Shown here: positions 4,490-10,485 of the stretch, in pieces
Position numbering within the stretch: position 1 is the stretch's first letter
Layout: each line of letters begins with the position of its first letter
Origin: Rhizomicrobium sp.
GTDB taxonomy: Bacteria > Pseudomonadota > Alphaproteobacteria > Micropepsales > Micropepsaceae
Direction of reading: 5' to 3'
Length of the DNA: 64,000 bases
NCBI GenBank assembly: GCA_037200985.1
Contig: JBBCGJ010000001.1
Coordinates: forward strand, 2,456,756-2,520,755
Program-made: the position numbers and the translations under genes
The notes under the pieces: model-generated
Told to the model about the DNA's origin: nothing
Seen by the model: the letters and a program-made list of their open reading frames with translations, nothing else
Databases searched by the model: none

Positions 4490-4498
4490 CACCCTCTT

Positions 4499-4520
4499 AC
4501 CCTTCCCTTGAGGGAGGGTA
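4499..4520 (+). terminator. imperfect hairpin repeat, probable terminator
   Basis: ACCCTTCCC and GGGAGGGT form a GC-rich hairpin just after the TIGR02186 stop. The same 22 bases occur as an exact reverse complement at 34157-34178 after the LLM oxidoreductase gene, so this is a dispersed hairpin module. The last bases belong to the IS1595 target site. Confidence 0.55.
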
Positions 4521-4525
4521 AATAC
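4518..4525. repeat. left target-site duplication of the IS1595 element
   Basis: GTAAATAC is repeated exactly at 6999-7006 on the other side of the element. Eight-base duplications are the norm for IS1595. Confidence 0.92.
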
Positions 4526-4638
4526 GGAACTTATATAGATGAGTCCCTTTAACCTTTGGAAGGTGATCCTCCACCAAAAGCTCAACAAAAACCACCGCTG
4601 GCGAGCAGCCAAGATGGCGATTTGGCTGCTGTGGGAAG

Positions 4639-4878
4639 CTATTTGCCCATGGTCTTTAGAAATGTCTGAATCTGAGATGAAAGCTCGACGACAGATTCCA
4701 TGGTCAAATGAATCTCCAATATGGCTTCAGATGGAGGTTTTGCGAGGGCGCGTTCTAAGTCTGGCGGACTTGCAAAGACTAAAGAGAGCTTGGCAGGTGA
4801 TGTGCTGCCGGGAATGCAGGAAACCTCCGGACGTACCCCCAACATAGAATACACGTCATGAAATACATCGTTTGTCAT
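4639..4878 (-). CDS. 79-aa hypothetical protein, IS1595 passenger
   Basis: Small acidic protein with no signal peptide and no membrane segment. The C-terminal third (AILEIHLTMESVVELSSQI) is predicted helical. GGAG lies 7 nt upstream of the ATG, which supports real translation. It is the last ORF of the IS1595 element, 40 nt after the lipoprotein gene and on the same strand, so both are probably transcribed from the transposase side. I do not recognise the family. The overlapping plus-strand ORF at 4539-4847 is likely a shadow. Confidence 0.55.
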   Translation of the reverse strand: MTNDVFHDVYSMLGVRPEVSCIPGSTSPAKLSLVFASPPDLERALAKPPSEAILEIHLTMESVVELSSQIQTFLKTMGK

Positions 4879-4918
4879 TTTCGTCTCCGGTTAGAGAATT
4901 AGTCAGTGTACTGATTAT

Positions 4919-5491
4919 TCAATGAACCTCGTGATAGTTGGGATCGGCACATTTCGCCCATAGCTGCCAAGCGAAATCTTCTCCTATTCCTCGCGCAACG
5001 GCGCGGCCGACGCAACGCTGCACGCGAACGGTTTTCAAGTCTGGCGTGAAGAGCGGCGTCGGTACGCGGCGATCATTGTCGGCGAGATTGGACGCGATCT
5101 CGGCGTCCGATATCCATTGCACTTGAATCGGCGCGTAGTCGCCGGGGTTAGAAACACTCAGGACTCCGGCGTCAGCGGTATTGTCCTCAAAGACGACCGT
5201 CGCTTGGCAAGAAACGGAACCGGCATCTGACGGCAGTCGAATGCTGACGCTGGAAAGCGCGACCGGATCAGCGGAGGACAGATCGTAGATAGCGCGTGCT
5301 CTTTTAGGAATGCCATTGGTCTTTCCAACAGACGCGTTCAACCATTGAAGCGCGCCGGCACTCGTCATTTCTACTCGTTGGCATGGATCATTCGGCGTCG
5401 TTGAAAAGAACTGCCCGGGTTCGTAATGGCGACCAGGGCCGGCGCACGCCATCAAAAGAAAATAGACTGCGACTAACAAGACCGAGCGCAT
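4919..5491 (-). CDS. putative lipoprotein, IS1595 passenger
   Basis: 190-aa protein with a lipoprotein signal: a hydrophobic N-terminus ending in the lipobox LMAC, with the acylated Cys at residue 16. A GGAGGGG ribosome-binding site sits just before the ATG. The mature protein has paired Cys residues, for example around SVSCQATVVFEDN and RVQRCVGRAV, and looks like a compact periplasmic beta domain. No family was recognised. It lies inside the IS1595 element, downstream of the transposase and on its strand. It is therefore mobile cargo rather than a host gene. A lipoprotein is an unusual IS passenger, and its role in the host or in transposition is unknown. Confidence 0.75.
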   Translation of the reverse strand: MRSVLLVAVYFLLMACAGPGRHYEPGQFFSTTPNDPCQRVEMTSAGALQWLNASVGKTNGIPKRARAIYDLSSADPVALSSVSIRLPSDAGSVSCQATVVFEDNTADAGVLSVSNPGDYAPIQVQWISDAEIASNLADNDRRVPTPLFTPDLKTVRVQRCVGRAVARGIGEDFAWQLWAKCADPNYHEVH

Positions 5492-5896
5492 TCAACCCCT
5501 CCATTGATCGGGGAGTTGATAAGGCCTCGTCTAAAAGGTCCGCACCGGCCTTTAGGCTTTCGCCCTGAACATGCGCCGGTGCCTCCTCGACCATAAGGTG
5601 AGGAGTGCGGATCACGGACGCACAACGCCGTTAGACGAAGGAGTTATCAAGCTCCGGGAGCGACTGCGCCGCTCTTGCCGAAGTTATAGCAAAGACCATT
5701 GATTCGCGCGAGATGTTCACGTACACATTCGATCCGCCTTCGCTTCGGAAACGGAGCATGCAGGCGAGATAACCGGAGACGATAAAAAGCAAACAGGCCC
5801 CAGCGCAAACTGGAGCCTGTCTTTCGTCAACCTGTTCCGGCTAGACCCGGAGACTGGAGGTGCTCAATGCGTTTCGTCGAACGCGTGATAATACTA
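5492..5896. other. non-coding interior of the IS1595 element
   Basis: No convincing gene. A palindrome CTAAAGGCC...GGACCTTTTAG lies near 5538-5562. A strong hairpin ACAGGCCCCAG (5793-5803) with CTGGAGCCTGT (5810-5820) is followed by CTTTCG on the plus strand. A plus-strand ORF of about 58 codons starts at ATG 5867 behind GGAGGT, but it runs antisense into the transposase end and has no recognisable content. Confidence 0.5.
5793..5825 (+). terminator. hairpin inside the IS1595 element
   Basis: 11-base arms 5793-5803 and 5810-5820 with one mismatch and a 6-nt loop, followed by a short T-rich run on the plus strand. It could stop read-through transcription into the element, or serve as a bidirectional terminator for the transposase side. 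Confidence 0.5.
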
Positions 5897-6022
5897 CTAA
5901 GTCTTTGTTCGGATGGGAAGTTTTTTCTTCTTGGGTTTTCGCCCGGGTTTTTCCTTCGCGACGGCCTTCTTCGAGCGGCCGTATGCAAGAACCTTGTCGA
6001 GGATGCCTTCTATCGCCTTCAA
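5897..6022 (-). CDS. 41-aa basic ORF coupled to the transposase
   Basis: Begins at a TTG overlapping the transposase stop (TTTTGA), 8 nt after GAGGAG, and ends at TAG 5897-5899. The peptide starts KAIEGILDKVLAYGRSKK and finishes with a very Lys/Arg-rich tail (PGRKPKKKKLPIRTKT). Two readings are possible: a translationally coupled small DNA/RNA-binding peptide, or a frameshift extension of the transposase. Composition and the precise coupling signals argue that it is real, but the start is non-ATG and no homology was tested. Confidence 0.45.
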   Translation of the reverse strand: MKAIEGILDKVLAYGRSKKAVAKEKPGRKPKKKKLPIRTKT

Positions 6023-6930
6023 AAGATCAGCTCCTCGTAAGTCAGGCGCTTGCCGACCGCCGCGTCGAACAGGCTGTCGAGGCGATCCATCGTGTGGCGC
6101 TTAACGTCGCCATCGTTGAGCCTGAACGCGAACTCGTCGACGTAGCGATGCAAATGCTTTGCGCTGGTGTGATGGTAAACCCCGTAAATACCGCGCTTCA
6201 AGACCGCCCATGCGCTCTCGACGCCATTGGTCGTCACGCCGTCGCGAACGTATTCGTTCGCGCTGTGGTTGACCGTCTCGTGCTTGTAGTCGGGACGAAG
6301 CCCGATGTAGCTGCTGAATTCGTCCGTGTGGATCGTCGAGCCGACCTCGATGTTGTTTCGGATAGCGCGCTGGAGCGCGAACGCCGTCGTCTTGCCGACG
6401 GGAAGCGCTTTCATCCTTCCGCCGCGTTCCCTTATTCCGATCACGGCGACCTTGCCGCCGGCGCCGTTCGCACCAAGCTTCTTGTGCTGGTGACGGTTCT
6501 TTTCCTTGCCGCCGACGTAGGTCTCGTCGACCTCGACGATCCCGCGAAGCATCGTCAGATCGTTGCCACAGGCTTCGCGCAAGCGACCGAGAACGAACCA
6601 GGCGGTCTTCTGCGTCACGCCGATCTGCTTAGCGAGTTGGACGCTGGAGATGCCCTTGCGCGCGGTCACGAGCATGTACATCGCGTACAGCCACTTATGC
6701 AGGGGGACGTGGCTGCGCTCGAAGACAGTGCCGGTCCGAACCGTGAAGTCCGTCTTGCAGGCGTTGCAGCGGTAAAAGCCGTTCTTGCGCGCGGTGATCC
6801 GGCTCGCCTCCCGGCACTCTGGGCACTTCGCGCCGCTAGGCCAGCGCCGGGCCTCTATGTAAGCTCGGGCGGCGGCTTCGTCGGGGAACCGTTGGAAAAG
6901 CTCGAAGGTCGAAATGGTCGAACGGGACAT
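6019..6930 (-). CDS. IS1595 family transposase
   Basis: 303-aa DDE-type transposase. The N-terminal zinc ribbon has CPEC and CNAC near residues 36 and 55. An HTH-like segment (SVQLAKQIGVTQKTAW) follows. The catalytic core has Asp in VDETYVGGK near residue 148, Asp in HTDEFSSY near residue 213, and the conserved third region TTNGVESAWAVLKRGIYG. Length and motif order are normal for IS1595. The start ATG at 6930 lies 27 nt downstream of a good -10 (6957-6962), whose -35 is in the terminal inverted repeat. The gene appears intact. Confidence 0.93.
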   Translation of the reverse strand: MSRSTISTFELFQRFPDEAAARAYIEARRWPSGAKCPECREASRITARKNGFYRCNACKTDFTVRTGTVFERSHVPLHKWLYAMYMLVTARKGISSVQLAKQIGVTQKTAWFVLGRLREACGNDLTMLRGIVEVDETYVGGKEKNRHQHKKLGANGAGGKVAVIGIRERGGRMKALPVGKTTAFALQRAIRNNIEVGSTIHTDEFSSYIGLRPDYKHETVNHSANEYVRDGVTTNGVESAWAVLKRGIYGVYHHTSAKHLHRYVDEFAFRLNDGDVKRHTMDRLDSLFDAAVGKRLTYEELIF

Positions 6931-6956
6931 CGGTCTTATCTCGAAATGACTTCTAT

Positions 6957-6985
6957 CCTATAGCGGACAAGATCGAGGGAGTCAA
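6957..6985 (-). promoter_or_regulatory. transposase promoter embedded in the IS end
   Basis: On the minus strand, TTGACT (6980-6985) and TATAGG (6957-6962) are separated by exactly 17 bases. The -35 box lies in the terminal inverted repeat, so transposase binding there could repress its own transcription. Confidence 0.7.
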
Positions 6986-6998
6986 GTATATAAGTCCC

Positions 6999-7006
6999 GT
7001 AAATAC
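6999..7006. repeat. right target-site duplication of the IS1595 element
   Basis: GTAAATAC, identical to 4518-4525. Confidence 0.92.
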
Positions 7007-7713: not shown

Positions 7714-7731
7714 GTCTCTCACGTATAACCC

Positions 7732-7876
7732 TCCCGTTCACGGGAGGGTCGAAAAATTCGAAGCGCAGCGAAGAATTTTTCGGGGGAGGCTACGCAGTCC
7801 GTTCTCCATCTGAGAGACTTTCCCCTCCCCGAAATCTGCTTCGCAGATTTCGACCCTCCCGTGAACGGGAGGATAG
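7732..7876. repeat. long palindromic intergenic repeat
   Basis: Two CCCTCCCGTTCACGGGAGG-type hairpins in inverted arrangement enclose AT-richer arms (GAAAAATTCGAAGC... and GAAATCTGCTTCGCAGATTTC). It fills the gap between lhr and pdeM and could form an mRNA stem between the two coding regions. It belongs to the same general class as the repeats at about 10330, 11820 and 13440. Confidence 0.7.
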
Positions 7877-7878
7877 TT

Positions 7879-10485
7879 TCACATTCGCATCGCATCCTCG
7901 ATCAGGCGTTCCTCGGCTTCGTGCAGGATGTCCTCGTGCGCTTCGCCGGCCACCATCTCCTTGGATATCTCCAGGAGCGCCGGCACAGCCAGCGGTGAGA
8001 CGCGTTCGAGGCGCCGCACGATTATTCGATTCCGGATGCGCTTCAGCATATCGGCCAGACGCGCGATGTCGAGCAGGCCGCTGCCGGCATCCTCATATGT
8101 CGCACGCAGCAGGACATGATCGGGCTCGTGCTCGCGCAGCACGTCGTAGATCAGGTCGGAAGAGAAGGTCACCTGCCGGCCCGTCTTCTCGCCGCGCGGA
8201 TGGCGCCGCTCGATCAGGCCAGAGATGATCGCGCAGTTGCGGAAGGTACGCTTGTAGAGGCTCGATTCCGCCAGCCAGGCGTCGAGATCGTCGCCCAGCA
8301 TGTCTTCGCTGAACAGCGCGTCCATGTCGGCGCCCCCCATATCGCGCAAGGCCCAGACGGCAAGTGCGTATTCGTTGGCGACGAAACCCAGCGGGCGCAG
8401 ACGCAGGCGTTCGAGCCGGCGCGTGAGCAGCATGCCGAGCGTTTGATGCGCCAGGCGCCCCTCGAACGGATAGCAGACAAGGTACTCTTTCGAACCGCGC
8501 GGGAAGGTTTCCACGAGAAGCTGGCCGGGCTGCGGCACGACGGAACGGAACTCCTGCATGCGAAGCCACTCGCCGACCGGATCGGGCAGATGCGCCCAGC
8601 TCTCGGGCCGCGACACCATCTCGCGCACGCGTTGCGCGAGGAACGTCGAGAGCGGGAACTTGCCGCCGTTGTAGGAGGGGATCTGCGCCTCGGCTTCCTG
8701 GGTGCGGCTGACATAGGCGCCGTCCTCGCGCATGCCTTCGAAGCGCAGGACATGGCCCGAGAAGATGAAGGTGTCGCCGGAGGTGAGCTGCTCGACGAAA
8801 TATTCCTCGAGCTGGCCGAGCACGCGGCCGCCGGCGCCGGTCGGCTTGCCGCGCGCCTGGAGGCGGATGTCGACCATCGGCTCCTCCACGATGACGCCGG
8901 CATTCATCCGGTAATGCTGGGCGAGACGCGGATGGGAGAGCCGCCACAAGCCTTCCGGCGTTCGGCGGAGCCGGGCATAACGGTCGTAGCGCTTGAGGGC
9001 GTAGCCGCCGGTGGCGACGAAATCGACCACCTTGTCGAAATCCTCGCGGGTCAGATGCGCATAGGGCGAGGCGGAACGGACTTCGGCATAGAGCGCCCCG
9101 GCATCGAACGGTTTCGAACAGGCGATACAGAGCACGTGCTGCGCGAGCACGTCGAGGCCGCCGCGCTTGAGGCGCTCGCCGTCGAGCTCGCCCGCCAGCA
9201 CTGCGTCGCGCGCCGCGTTGCATTCGAGCACTTCGAAACGGTTGGCGGGCACGAGCAGCGCCTGGCTCGGCTCGTCCAGCCGGTGATTGGCGCGGCCGAT
9301 GCGCTGCACCAGCCGCGCGGCGCCTTTCGGTGCGCCGATGCAGATCACCTTGTCCACCGCGCCCCAGTCGATGCCGAGATCCAGCGTCGAGGTGCAGACC
9401 ACGGCGCGCAAGTCGCCGCGCATCATTGCGGCCTCTACCTTGCGGCGCTGCTGCGGCGCGAGGCTGCCGTGATGCAGCGCGATGGCGAGGTTGTCGGCGT
9501 TGATGCGCCACAGTTCCTGGAACGTCCGCTCCGCCTGGCTGCGGGTGTTGACGAAGACGAGCGCGGTCTTCGCCTCCTTGATCGCCGTCATCACGTCGGC
9601 CATGGCGTGGCGCGCCAGATGGCCGGCCCAGGGGACATAGGAATCCGAGGCGCTGATCGAAATCTCAGGCTTCGCGCCTGGCCGGCCCAGCACCAGTGCC
9701 GATCTCGCCTCGCCTTCGGCGGGCTGCGGCATCAGATAGCGCTGCAGAGGCGCGGGGTCCGCGACGGTCGCGGAGAGCCCGACGCGGCGATGGCCCGGCG
9801 CCAGCGTGCGCAGCCGCGCGAGGCCGAGCGCGAGCAGATCGCCGCGCTTGGAATTGTGCATGGCGTGAAGCTCATCGAGCACCACGGCCTTCAGGTCCGC
9901 GAACATCAGGCCGGCGCCGGGATTGGACAGCAGCAGCGCGAGCTGCTCCGGCGTGGTGAGCAGGATGTCGGGCGGACGATGGCGCTGGCGCTGGCGCTTG
10001 GAGACCGAGGTGTCGCCGGTGCGGGTTTCGACCCGGATGGGCAGGCCCATCTCGGCGACCGGCGCTTCGAGATTGCGCGCCACGTCGACGGCGAGGGCCT
10101 TCAGCGGCGAGATATAGAGCGTGTGCAGGCGAGCGGCGCGCCGGGCAGGGAGTTTCGCGAGGTCGATCAGGCTGGGCAGGAAGCCGGCCAGCGTCTTGCC
10201 GCCACCGGTCGGCGCGACCAGCAGCACGGATTCGCCGCGCGACGCGTGCGCGATCAGCGCGGACTGGTGCGGACGGATCGACCAGCCGCGCGACGCGAAC
10301 CAGGCGGAAAAGGTGGCGGGGAGTGCGAGAGCGTTTTCCTCCCCCGCGTTTGCGGGGGAGGGGGACCGCGAAGCGGTGGAGGGGGCCGACTGGGCGGGCC
10401 CCCTCCGGCTCGCTACGCTCGCCACCTCCCCCGCAACAGCGGGGGAGGAAACTAATGTGCCGTCATTTTTGCCTGTCGCCGTCAT
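7879..10485 (-). CDS. ligase-associated DEXH-box DNA helicase (Lhr type)
   Basis: About 868-aa SF2 helicase. Walker A is APTGGGKT, the DEXH box is VVLDELHAMH, motif III is GLSATVAD, and the second RecA domain has LVFVNTRSQAE and the arginine-finger region QRIGRANHR. The long C-terminal Lhr core, with DUF4145-like/winged-helix parts, follows. It pairs with PdeM downstream in the alphaproteobacterial DNA-repair cluster. The N-terminus is odd: from ATG 10485 the first ~50 codons read through a palindromic intergenic repeat before the family-typical LPATFSAWFASRGW. No start codon was found between repeat and domain, so either the repeat is translated or a GTG inside it is used. Confidence 0.88.
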   Translation of the reverse strand: MTATGKNDGTLVSSPAVAGEVASVASRRGPAQSAPSTASRSPSPANAGEENALALPATFSAWFASRGWSIRPHQSALIAHASRGESVLLVAPTGGGKTLAGFLPSLIDLAKLPARRAARLHTLYISPLKALAVDVARNLEAPVAEMGLPIRVETRTGDTSVSKRQRQRHRPPDILLTTPEQLALLLSNPGAGLMFADLKAVVLDELHAMHNSKRGDLLALGLARLRTLAPGHRRVGLSATVADPAPLQRYLMPQPAEGEARSALVLGRPGAKPEISISASDSYVPWAGHLARHAMADVMTAIKEAKTALVFVNTRSQAERTFQELWRINADNLAIALHHGSLAPQQRRKVEAAMMRGDLRAVVCTSTLDLGIDWGAVDKVICIGAPKGAARLVQRIGRANHRLDEPSQALLVPANRFEVLECNAARDAVLAGELDGERLKRGGLDVLAQHVLCIACSKPFDAGALYAEVRSASPYAHLTREDFDKVVDFVATGGYALKRYDRYARLRRTPEGLWRLSHPRLAQHYRMNAGVIVEEPMVDIRLQARGKPTGAGGRVLGQLEEYFVEQLTSGDTFIFSGHVLRFEGMREDGAYVSRTQEAEAQIPSYNGGKFPLSTFLAQRVREMVSRPESWAHLPDPVGEWLRMQEFRSVVPQPGQLLVETFPRGSKEYLVCYPFEGRLAHQTLGMLLTRRLERLRLRPLGFVANEYALAVWALRDMGGADMDALFSEDMLGDDLDAWLAESSLYKRTFRNCAIISGLIERRHPRGEKTGRQVTFSSDLIYDVLREHEPDHVLLRATYEDAGSGLLDIARLADMLKRIRNRIIVRRLERVSPLAVPALLEISKEMVAGEAHEDILHEAEERLIEDAMRM
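10328..10455. repeat. palindromic repeat inside the 5' end of the Lhr-type gene
   Basis: TTTCCTCCCCCGC...GCGGGGGAGGAAA outer arms enclose an inner inverted pair (GGAGGGGGCC / GGCCCCCTCC). It resembles the elements at 11815-11945 and 13440-13612. It falls in the coding frame and adds about 40 low-complexity residues to the helicase N-terminus. Confidence 0.7.

Follow-up and report, generated by a model that had tools for sequence, protein, structure and literature searches.

The locus analyzed here raises the question of which genes between the ends of an insertion sequence belong to its transposition machinery, and which are carried as cargo. It lies in a 64,000-nucleotide stretch of DNA from Rhizomicrobium sp., referred to below as the window. 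An initial annotation described a complete IS1595 element holding a transposase, a 41-aa basic peptide, a lipoprotein and a 79-aa protein, and took the genes other than the transposase to be passengers. The overall explanation that we favor, with a probability of roughly 0.72, is that the element belongs to a cargo-bearing clade of the IS1595 family with a two-gene module, in which the transposase is accompanied by an overlapping basic protein of 40–55 residues, and with cargo that is replaceable.

The element and its insertion site

The features of the element are listed in Table 1. The element proper occupies positions 4526–6998, or 4518–7006 when the duplications are included. Its two terminal repeats are identical at 18 of 22 positions, and the same pair was returned by an inverted-repeat finder; simple arithmetic gives an expectation of about 5e-6 for an 8/8 duplication with an adjoining 18/22 inverted pair among some 9 million position pairs. 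The transposase matches the Pfam families DDE_Tnp_IS1595 (1.7e-41) and Zn_ribbon_IS1595 (1.7e-10) and the NCBIfam model IS1595 NF033547 (2.4e-60; 204 bits against a cut-off of 75). The complete element of the initial annotation, with its ends, perfect 8-bp duplication, family transposase and four ORFs on one strand, was therefore confirmed. The boundaries are secure because dozens of homologous elements have the same ends of 22 bp, and duplications of 8 bp, just where the position of the transposase predicts them.

Table 1. Features of the window element, in window coordinates.
Feature	Position	Strand	Basis
Target-site duplication, left copy, GTAAATAC	4518..4525	.	Sequence read directly, inverted-repeat search
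Terminal inverted repeat distal to transposase, GGAACTTATATAGATGAGTCCC	4526..4547	+	Inverted-repeat search; homologue consensus GGGAATTATATACTTGACTCCC
79-aa ORF, cargo; Shine-Dalgarno-like GGAGA upstream of ATG	4639..4878	-	
190-aa predicted lipoprotein, cargo; signal peptide, lipobox LLMAC, own Shine-Dalgarno GGAGG	4919..5491	-	
Intrinsic-terminator-like hairpin, 14 pairs and T tract, between peptide and lipoprotein genes	5791..5822	-	Consensus match only
41-aa basic peptide, member of conserved accessory family	5897..6022	-	ORF list, HMM 40.1 bits, E 3.9e-11
IS1595-family DDE transposase, 303 aa	6019..6930	-	Pfam and NCBIfam matches
Terminal inverted repeat, transposase side; reverse complement GGGACTTATATACTTGACTCCC	6977..6998	-	Inverted-repeat and end-pattern search
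Target-site duplication, right copy, GTAAATAC	6999..7006	.	Sequence read directly, inverted-repeat search

The insertion point is intergenic, with a chromosomal gene on either side. The nearest relative (G028), whose two flanks are 92 and 91% identical at the nucleotide level, has these genes side by side across a spacer of about 155 bp that holds neither the element nor the lipoprotein, and roughly 20 more genus members share this arrangement. This makes the insertion a recent one that brought the lipoprotein with it, in line with the earlier expectation that the cargo is likely to move with the element. The genome is a single 4.64-Mb contig, and an end-pattern search found the element in it once. 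A second element of the same clade, 1.98 kb long (L040 7734–9716), lies about 70 kb away; its transposase is 71% identical to that of the window element, it is bounded by ends of its own, of which one equals the clade consensus exactly, it is flanked by the duplication ATAACAAT, and its cargo differs. We conclude that the window element is an intact IS1595-family unit transposon that inserted recently, and we regard it as almost certain that it is a real mobile element with cargo.

It could be argued that the lipoprotein gene and the 79-aa ORF are not cargo but long-standing parts of the chromosome that became enclosed between an IS copy and a sequence resembling its end by chance. Neither gene has homologues in other elements, and the left end departs from the clade consensus at several positions, both of which would fit. 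We find this scarcely credible, however: the perfect duplication lies outside both ends, the passengers were not found at this site without the element in the relatives compared, in which the flanking genes are neighbors, and all other complete elements hold cargo in the same slots. The G+C content of the element (0.56) and of the lipoprotein gene (0.57) also departs from the 0.67 of the surroundings; that of the left 390 bp is 0.47.

A clade of cargo-bearing elements and its partner peptide

We sampled transposases of about 47–73% identity, 80 loci from GTDB species contigs and the best 80 of 316 from IMG/VR viral contigs; the clade described here covers about 55–73% transposase identity. Boundaries were located by inverted-end similarity and duplicated 8-mers, without use of the window's own ends, and this search recovered GGGAATTATATACTTGACTCCC together with an 8/8 duplication in many loci. 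A wider boundary search gave 101 distinct complete elements of 1.28 to 4.06 kb, 77 of them with an 8/8 duplication. These span at least five phyla in addition to viral contigs: the records give the hosts as Alpha-, Beta-, Gamma- and Deltaproteobacteria/Myxococcota, Acidobacteriota, Bacteroidota, Planctomycetota and Caldilineaceae, mostly from metagenome bins in which short contigs can be misassigned. No transposase of at least 60% identity was present among 72,556 PLSDB plasmids or 50,697 INPHARED phage records, so that what is known of the clade comes mostly from metagenome-assembled genomes and uncultivated viral contigs. Some of the latter are true phage sequences, with head-tail adaptor, terminase, integrase and tail-fiber genes adjoining the elements (L127, L198, L132, L189).

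There is no bare IS among the 101 complete elements; each contains extra DNA with at least one cargo ORF. The view that passengers are a minority feature of such elements, taken in the initial annotation, thus does not hold within this clade.

An HMM search placed the 41-aa peptide in a family that 96 of the 101 complete elements possess. It adjoins the transposase in 66 and follows cargo in 20, and in 10 it was scored as an N-terminal fusion; nine of these fusions look genuine, the tenth, L090, being probably a chance ORF. The complete element L140 lacks the peptide. Members are basic and 40–55 residues long, with the consensus KPPKALDAIADKVLAYRPKPKSKPAKKRKRR; in the consensus written as KPPKALDAIADKVLAYRPKPKSKPAKKRKRRKKKAKKKA, residues L6, D11, V13, L14, Y16 and P18 are 92–97% conserved. 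Members are recognized by the motif LDxIxDxVLxYRP with an Arg/Lys-rich helix after it, in a protein encoded beside a transposase. The window peptide shows this pattern as a divergent member, with a TTG start, 41 residues and the helix motif EGILDKVLAYG. It scores 40.1 bits with the seed HMM, whose seed includes it, and 25.8 bits with a broader model; reversed sequences peak at about 7 bits, compared with 20–69 bits for typical real matches. The 385 genomes of the class that were searched contain a single strong match, in the second element of the window's own genome, and near the more distant IS1595 transposases of relatives (about 44–47% identity or less) no match exceeded 7.5 bits.

The start codon of the peptide overlaps the stop codon of the transposase as ATGA (position -1) in 81 loci, and in the window a TTG start overlaps the TGA stop (TTGA). 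Pooled dN/dS over 33 independent pairs is 0.19, an approximate value given that synonymous sites are partly saturated, and indicates purifying selection. Peptide distances track transposase distances (Mantel r 0.61, 0 of 999 permutations), which shows that the two genes are inherited together. On these sequence comparisons the 41-aa peptide is the conserved second gene of an IS1595 clade, not cargo, and very probably belongs to the transposition module. Of the passengers first proposed, the lipoprotein and the 79-aa ORF therefore stand as cargo inside the ends, while the peptide does not.

In most elements the peptide is read in the -1/+2 frame with respect to the transposase and shares bases with the transposase stop codon, as would be expected if it were a C-terminal extension of the transposase made by -1 frameshifting, with no free protein. 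This reading is very improbable, and we reject it because cargo often lies between the two: in 20 complete elements a cargo gene parts transposase from peptide, and in these the overlap is often with the stop codon of whichever ORF directly precedes the peptide. In addition, the peptide is fused to cargo proteins in nine elements, and nearly all peptides have their own ATG.

AlphaFold, applied to 42 sequences, predicts the peptide to be a two-helix hairpin, with helices at residues 8–19 and 27–45, a pLDDT of 92–95 in the core block and a mean of 85. A comparison of the predicted fold with the PDB gave no match at E <= 10, which is expected for a hairpin of 55 residues.

Cargo content and turnover

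The complete elements contain 134 cargo ORFs of at least 70 aa, in 109 sequence groups; ORFs were called mechanically, and some of the small ones may not be genes. The set includes defense-type and phage-type genes. There are C5 and N4/N6 DNA methyltransferases, some of them paired with a restriction enzyme into whole restriction-modification (R-M) systems (L054, SfiI-like, 1.2e-50; L124, REase_II, 1.3e-121; L175, HNH), and PAPS-reductase-like proteins (phrog_424, which PHROG classes as 'moron'). A Beta-protein/PD-Lambda-2_C protein, an ASCH domain and a Gp49/RelE-like protein also occur, a family of membrane/coiled-coil proteins recurs, and a distant member carries HsdM/HsdS.

Cargo may lie upstream of the transposase, in the gap that separates it from the peptide, or on the far side of the peptide, and its upstream or downstream state requires 14 changes on the transposase tree. 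Pairs of elements whose DNA is 83–94% identical over the transposase, and which have the ends and usually the peptide in common, carry unrelated cargo. For example, L154 (PAPS-reductase-like) and L168 (nuclease-like) are 93.6% identical over 1,002 bp; further sets are L055 and L064; L176, L178 and L183; and L163 and L186. The breakpoints fall at gene junctions, mostly directly before the transposase start or after its stop. These comparisons show that the transposition module is conserved and the genes in the cargo slots are replaced wholesale.

In the nine genuine fusions, the first helix of the peptide is joined to the N-terminus of a cargo protein, and in eight of them this protein is a DNA methyltransferase. 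Methyltransferase cargo is thus found in 8 of 9 fused and 2 of 85 unfused elements (Fisher p 3.6e-9, which is overstated, as related rows are not independent). The fusion state changed at least twice on the tree, and most simply four times. Several of the fusions have lost the basic tail and kept the LDxIxDxVLxYxP helix; this suggests that the helix serves some function of its own.

No homologue of the lipoprotein in the window element was detected in searches that covered 60 near genomes, the 385 of the class, contigs from GTDB and from viruses, plasmids and family libraries. The proposed check for the same lipoprotein between IS1595 ends elsewhere accordingly found nothing, because there is no detectable homologue to find. 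The closest chassis, in a sister species (G034/L044, 72%), carries another, unrelated lipoprotein. A single-sequence AlphaFold prediction of the window lipoprotein has a mean pLDDT of 37 and no confident fold, and for the 79-aa ORF no homologue turned up, with no Pfam, PHROG or NCBIfam match. Judged from its signal peptide, the lipoprotein could plausibly be an envelope accessory or exclusion-type gene of the phage-moron sort. It is probably expressed separately, because the terminator-like hairpin parts its gene from the transposase-peptide operon; this suggests that the two cargo genes may form a separate transcription unit.

Function of the module and comparison with known systems

The module is made up of the two 22-bp ends, the DDE transposase and the translationally overlapping basic protein; transposase and peptide would be co-translated. 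The N-terminal helix of the peptide may provide an interaction surface for the transposase, and the Arg/Lys-rich second helix may bind DNA, possibly the A/T-rich TATATA ends; the peptide would thereby aid or tune transposition or its regulation. Cargo such as the lipoprotein, which would have moved together with the element, may persist by benefiting the host or phage genome that carries it. Whether the peptide is a positive accessory factor of transposition is in our judgment evenly balanced. A more extended proposal, which we put forward tentatively and as less likely than not, is that the cargo slots lie at the ATGA junctions, that cargo is rapidly exchanged in phages and bacteria, that transposition or cargo handling depends on the partner, and that fusion to a methyltransferase ties an R-M system to the mobility machinery.

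The peptide might instead be a regulator or inhibitor, such as an autorepressor of the transposase operon or an inhibitor that binds the transposase. Small regulators are known from IS1-type and IS911-type elements, and the overlap with the transposase, the small basic helical fold and the conservation with the transposase all fit such a role. The distal position of some peptides and the methyltransferase fusions do not specially favor a repressor, however, and we place this possibility on the doubtful side.

If the favored reading of a two-gene module with replaceable cargo is right, then this clade, with no bare members, with cargo swapped between almost identical chassis and with a presence in phage contigs, would give whole R-M systems and other defense or moron genes a path into and between phages and their hosts, as units of 1.3–4 kb. 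It also raises a testable question, namely what role a 45-residue helical hairpin plays for a DDE transposase.

The IS1595 family comprises seven ISfinder groups (IS1016, IS1595, ISH4, ISPna2, ISSod11, ISNwi1 and ISNha5), and a single transposase gene is usual (PMC8101967). The present clade agrees with the family definition in having a DDE transposase with an N-terminal zinc ribbon, inverted ends that start with GG, and 8-bp duplications (PMC8101967). It differs in its conserved second gene and in the presence of cargo in every complete element found. The second gene does not exclude membership, because a single gene is only the usual state and members with passengers are recognized. Two of the groups, ISNwi1 and ISNha5 (about 1.75–8 kb), are listed with passengers and may include this clade.

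Transporter ISs (tIS) are a recognized part of the IS1595 family (Siguier 2009, as cited in PMC5704250, PMC3129680 and PMC11891212). The window element resembles them in that the lipoprotein and 79-aa ORF lie inside the ends and the site is empty in relatives; these two genes would be dispensable for transposition, because they are absent from other clade elements. Like ISNha5, tISCpe8 and MTnSag1, the clade has an IS1595-type transposase and ends that enclose passengers (PMC5704250, PMC11891212). Unlike tISCpe8 and MTnSag1, which are known as a lincomycin-resistance element and mobilizable elements (PMC5704250), it swaps cargo between elements on one chassis and has a partner peptide.

Given that cargo-carrying elements of this family are already known, and that ISNha5 carries transcription regulators, the window element might be an ordinary tIS with passengers of a catalogued kind, and its peptide an overlooked minor ORF of no importance. 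We think this unlikely, since the peptide is near-universal in the clade, under purifying selection, and independently displaced and fused. Moreover, no prior description of such a partner was found in the openly accessible papers searched. Two features appear to be new: the near-universal partner, which is displaced in some elements and fused to methyltransferases in others, and the scale on which cargo is exchanged.

Two other systems offer parallels. As in integron gene cassettes, a constant mobility chassis is combined with exchangeable genes, but here those genes are enclosed by the terminal repeats of a DDE transposon. As with phage morons, the cargo includes the PHROG 'moron' PAPS reductase, methyltransferases and small phage-type ORFs, and several elements adjoin phage structural genes; unlike morons, the cargo genes of this clade are not individually inserted but travel within a transposon.

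Recurring cargo

The commonest single cargo type among the cargo-bearing IS1595-family elements related by transposase to that of the window is a protein family whose members have membrane helices at the N-terminus, a coiled coil and a domain at the C-terminus. The protein from L134, the sole member tested, had no match in Pfam, PHROG or PADLOC.

Members of the membrane-helix/coiled-coil cargo family (locus-internal coordinates)
Locus	Position
L134	8090-8920
L087	8192-9013
L084	5901-6713
L135	8201-8953
L067	8153-8866
L040 (window's genome)	8947-9618

Distribution of the basic partner peptide

The peptide was not detectable in the complete element L140:6931-8768, which carries a PAPS-reductase-like cargo and has an 8-bp duplication; this natural exception is of use for testing whether the peptide is needed. 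Weak peptide matches were found in divergent Caldilineaceae loci (L095, L102, L103 and L109; 47-56% identity); in L095 (HMM match, element positions 2469-2705, - strand) and L109 they lie on the opposite strand. The origin of the peptide family may predate the close clade.

Insertion site and distant locus

Spacers near the window's insertion site contain short G+C-rich inverted repeats of the CCCTCCCGTT...GGGAGGG type (4490-4517 and 7720-7790), and the transposon is inserted at the edge of one of these. The sequence CCCGTAAATAC, which spans the join between the element's end and the target duplication (6991-7006), occurs again within the transposase gene (6176-6191), probably by chance.

At a distant IS1595-type locus from Leptospirales (L110:6920-9663), HsdM and HsdS genes lie directly downstream of the transposase, and the ends are of a different type, TTGCCCCAGTCTGAAAAATATA.
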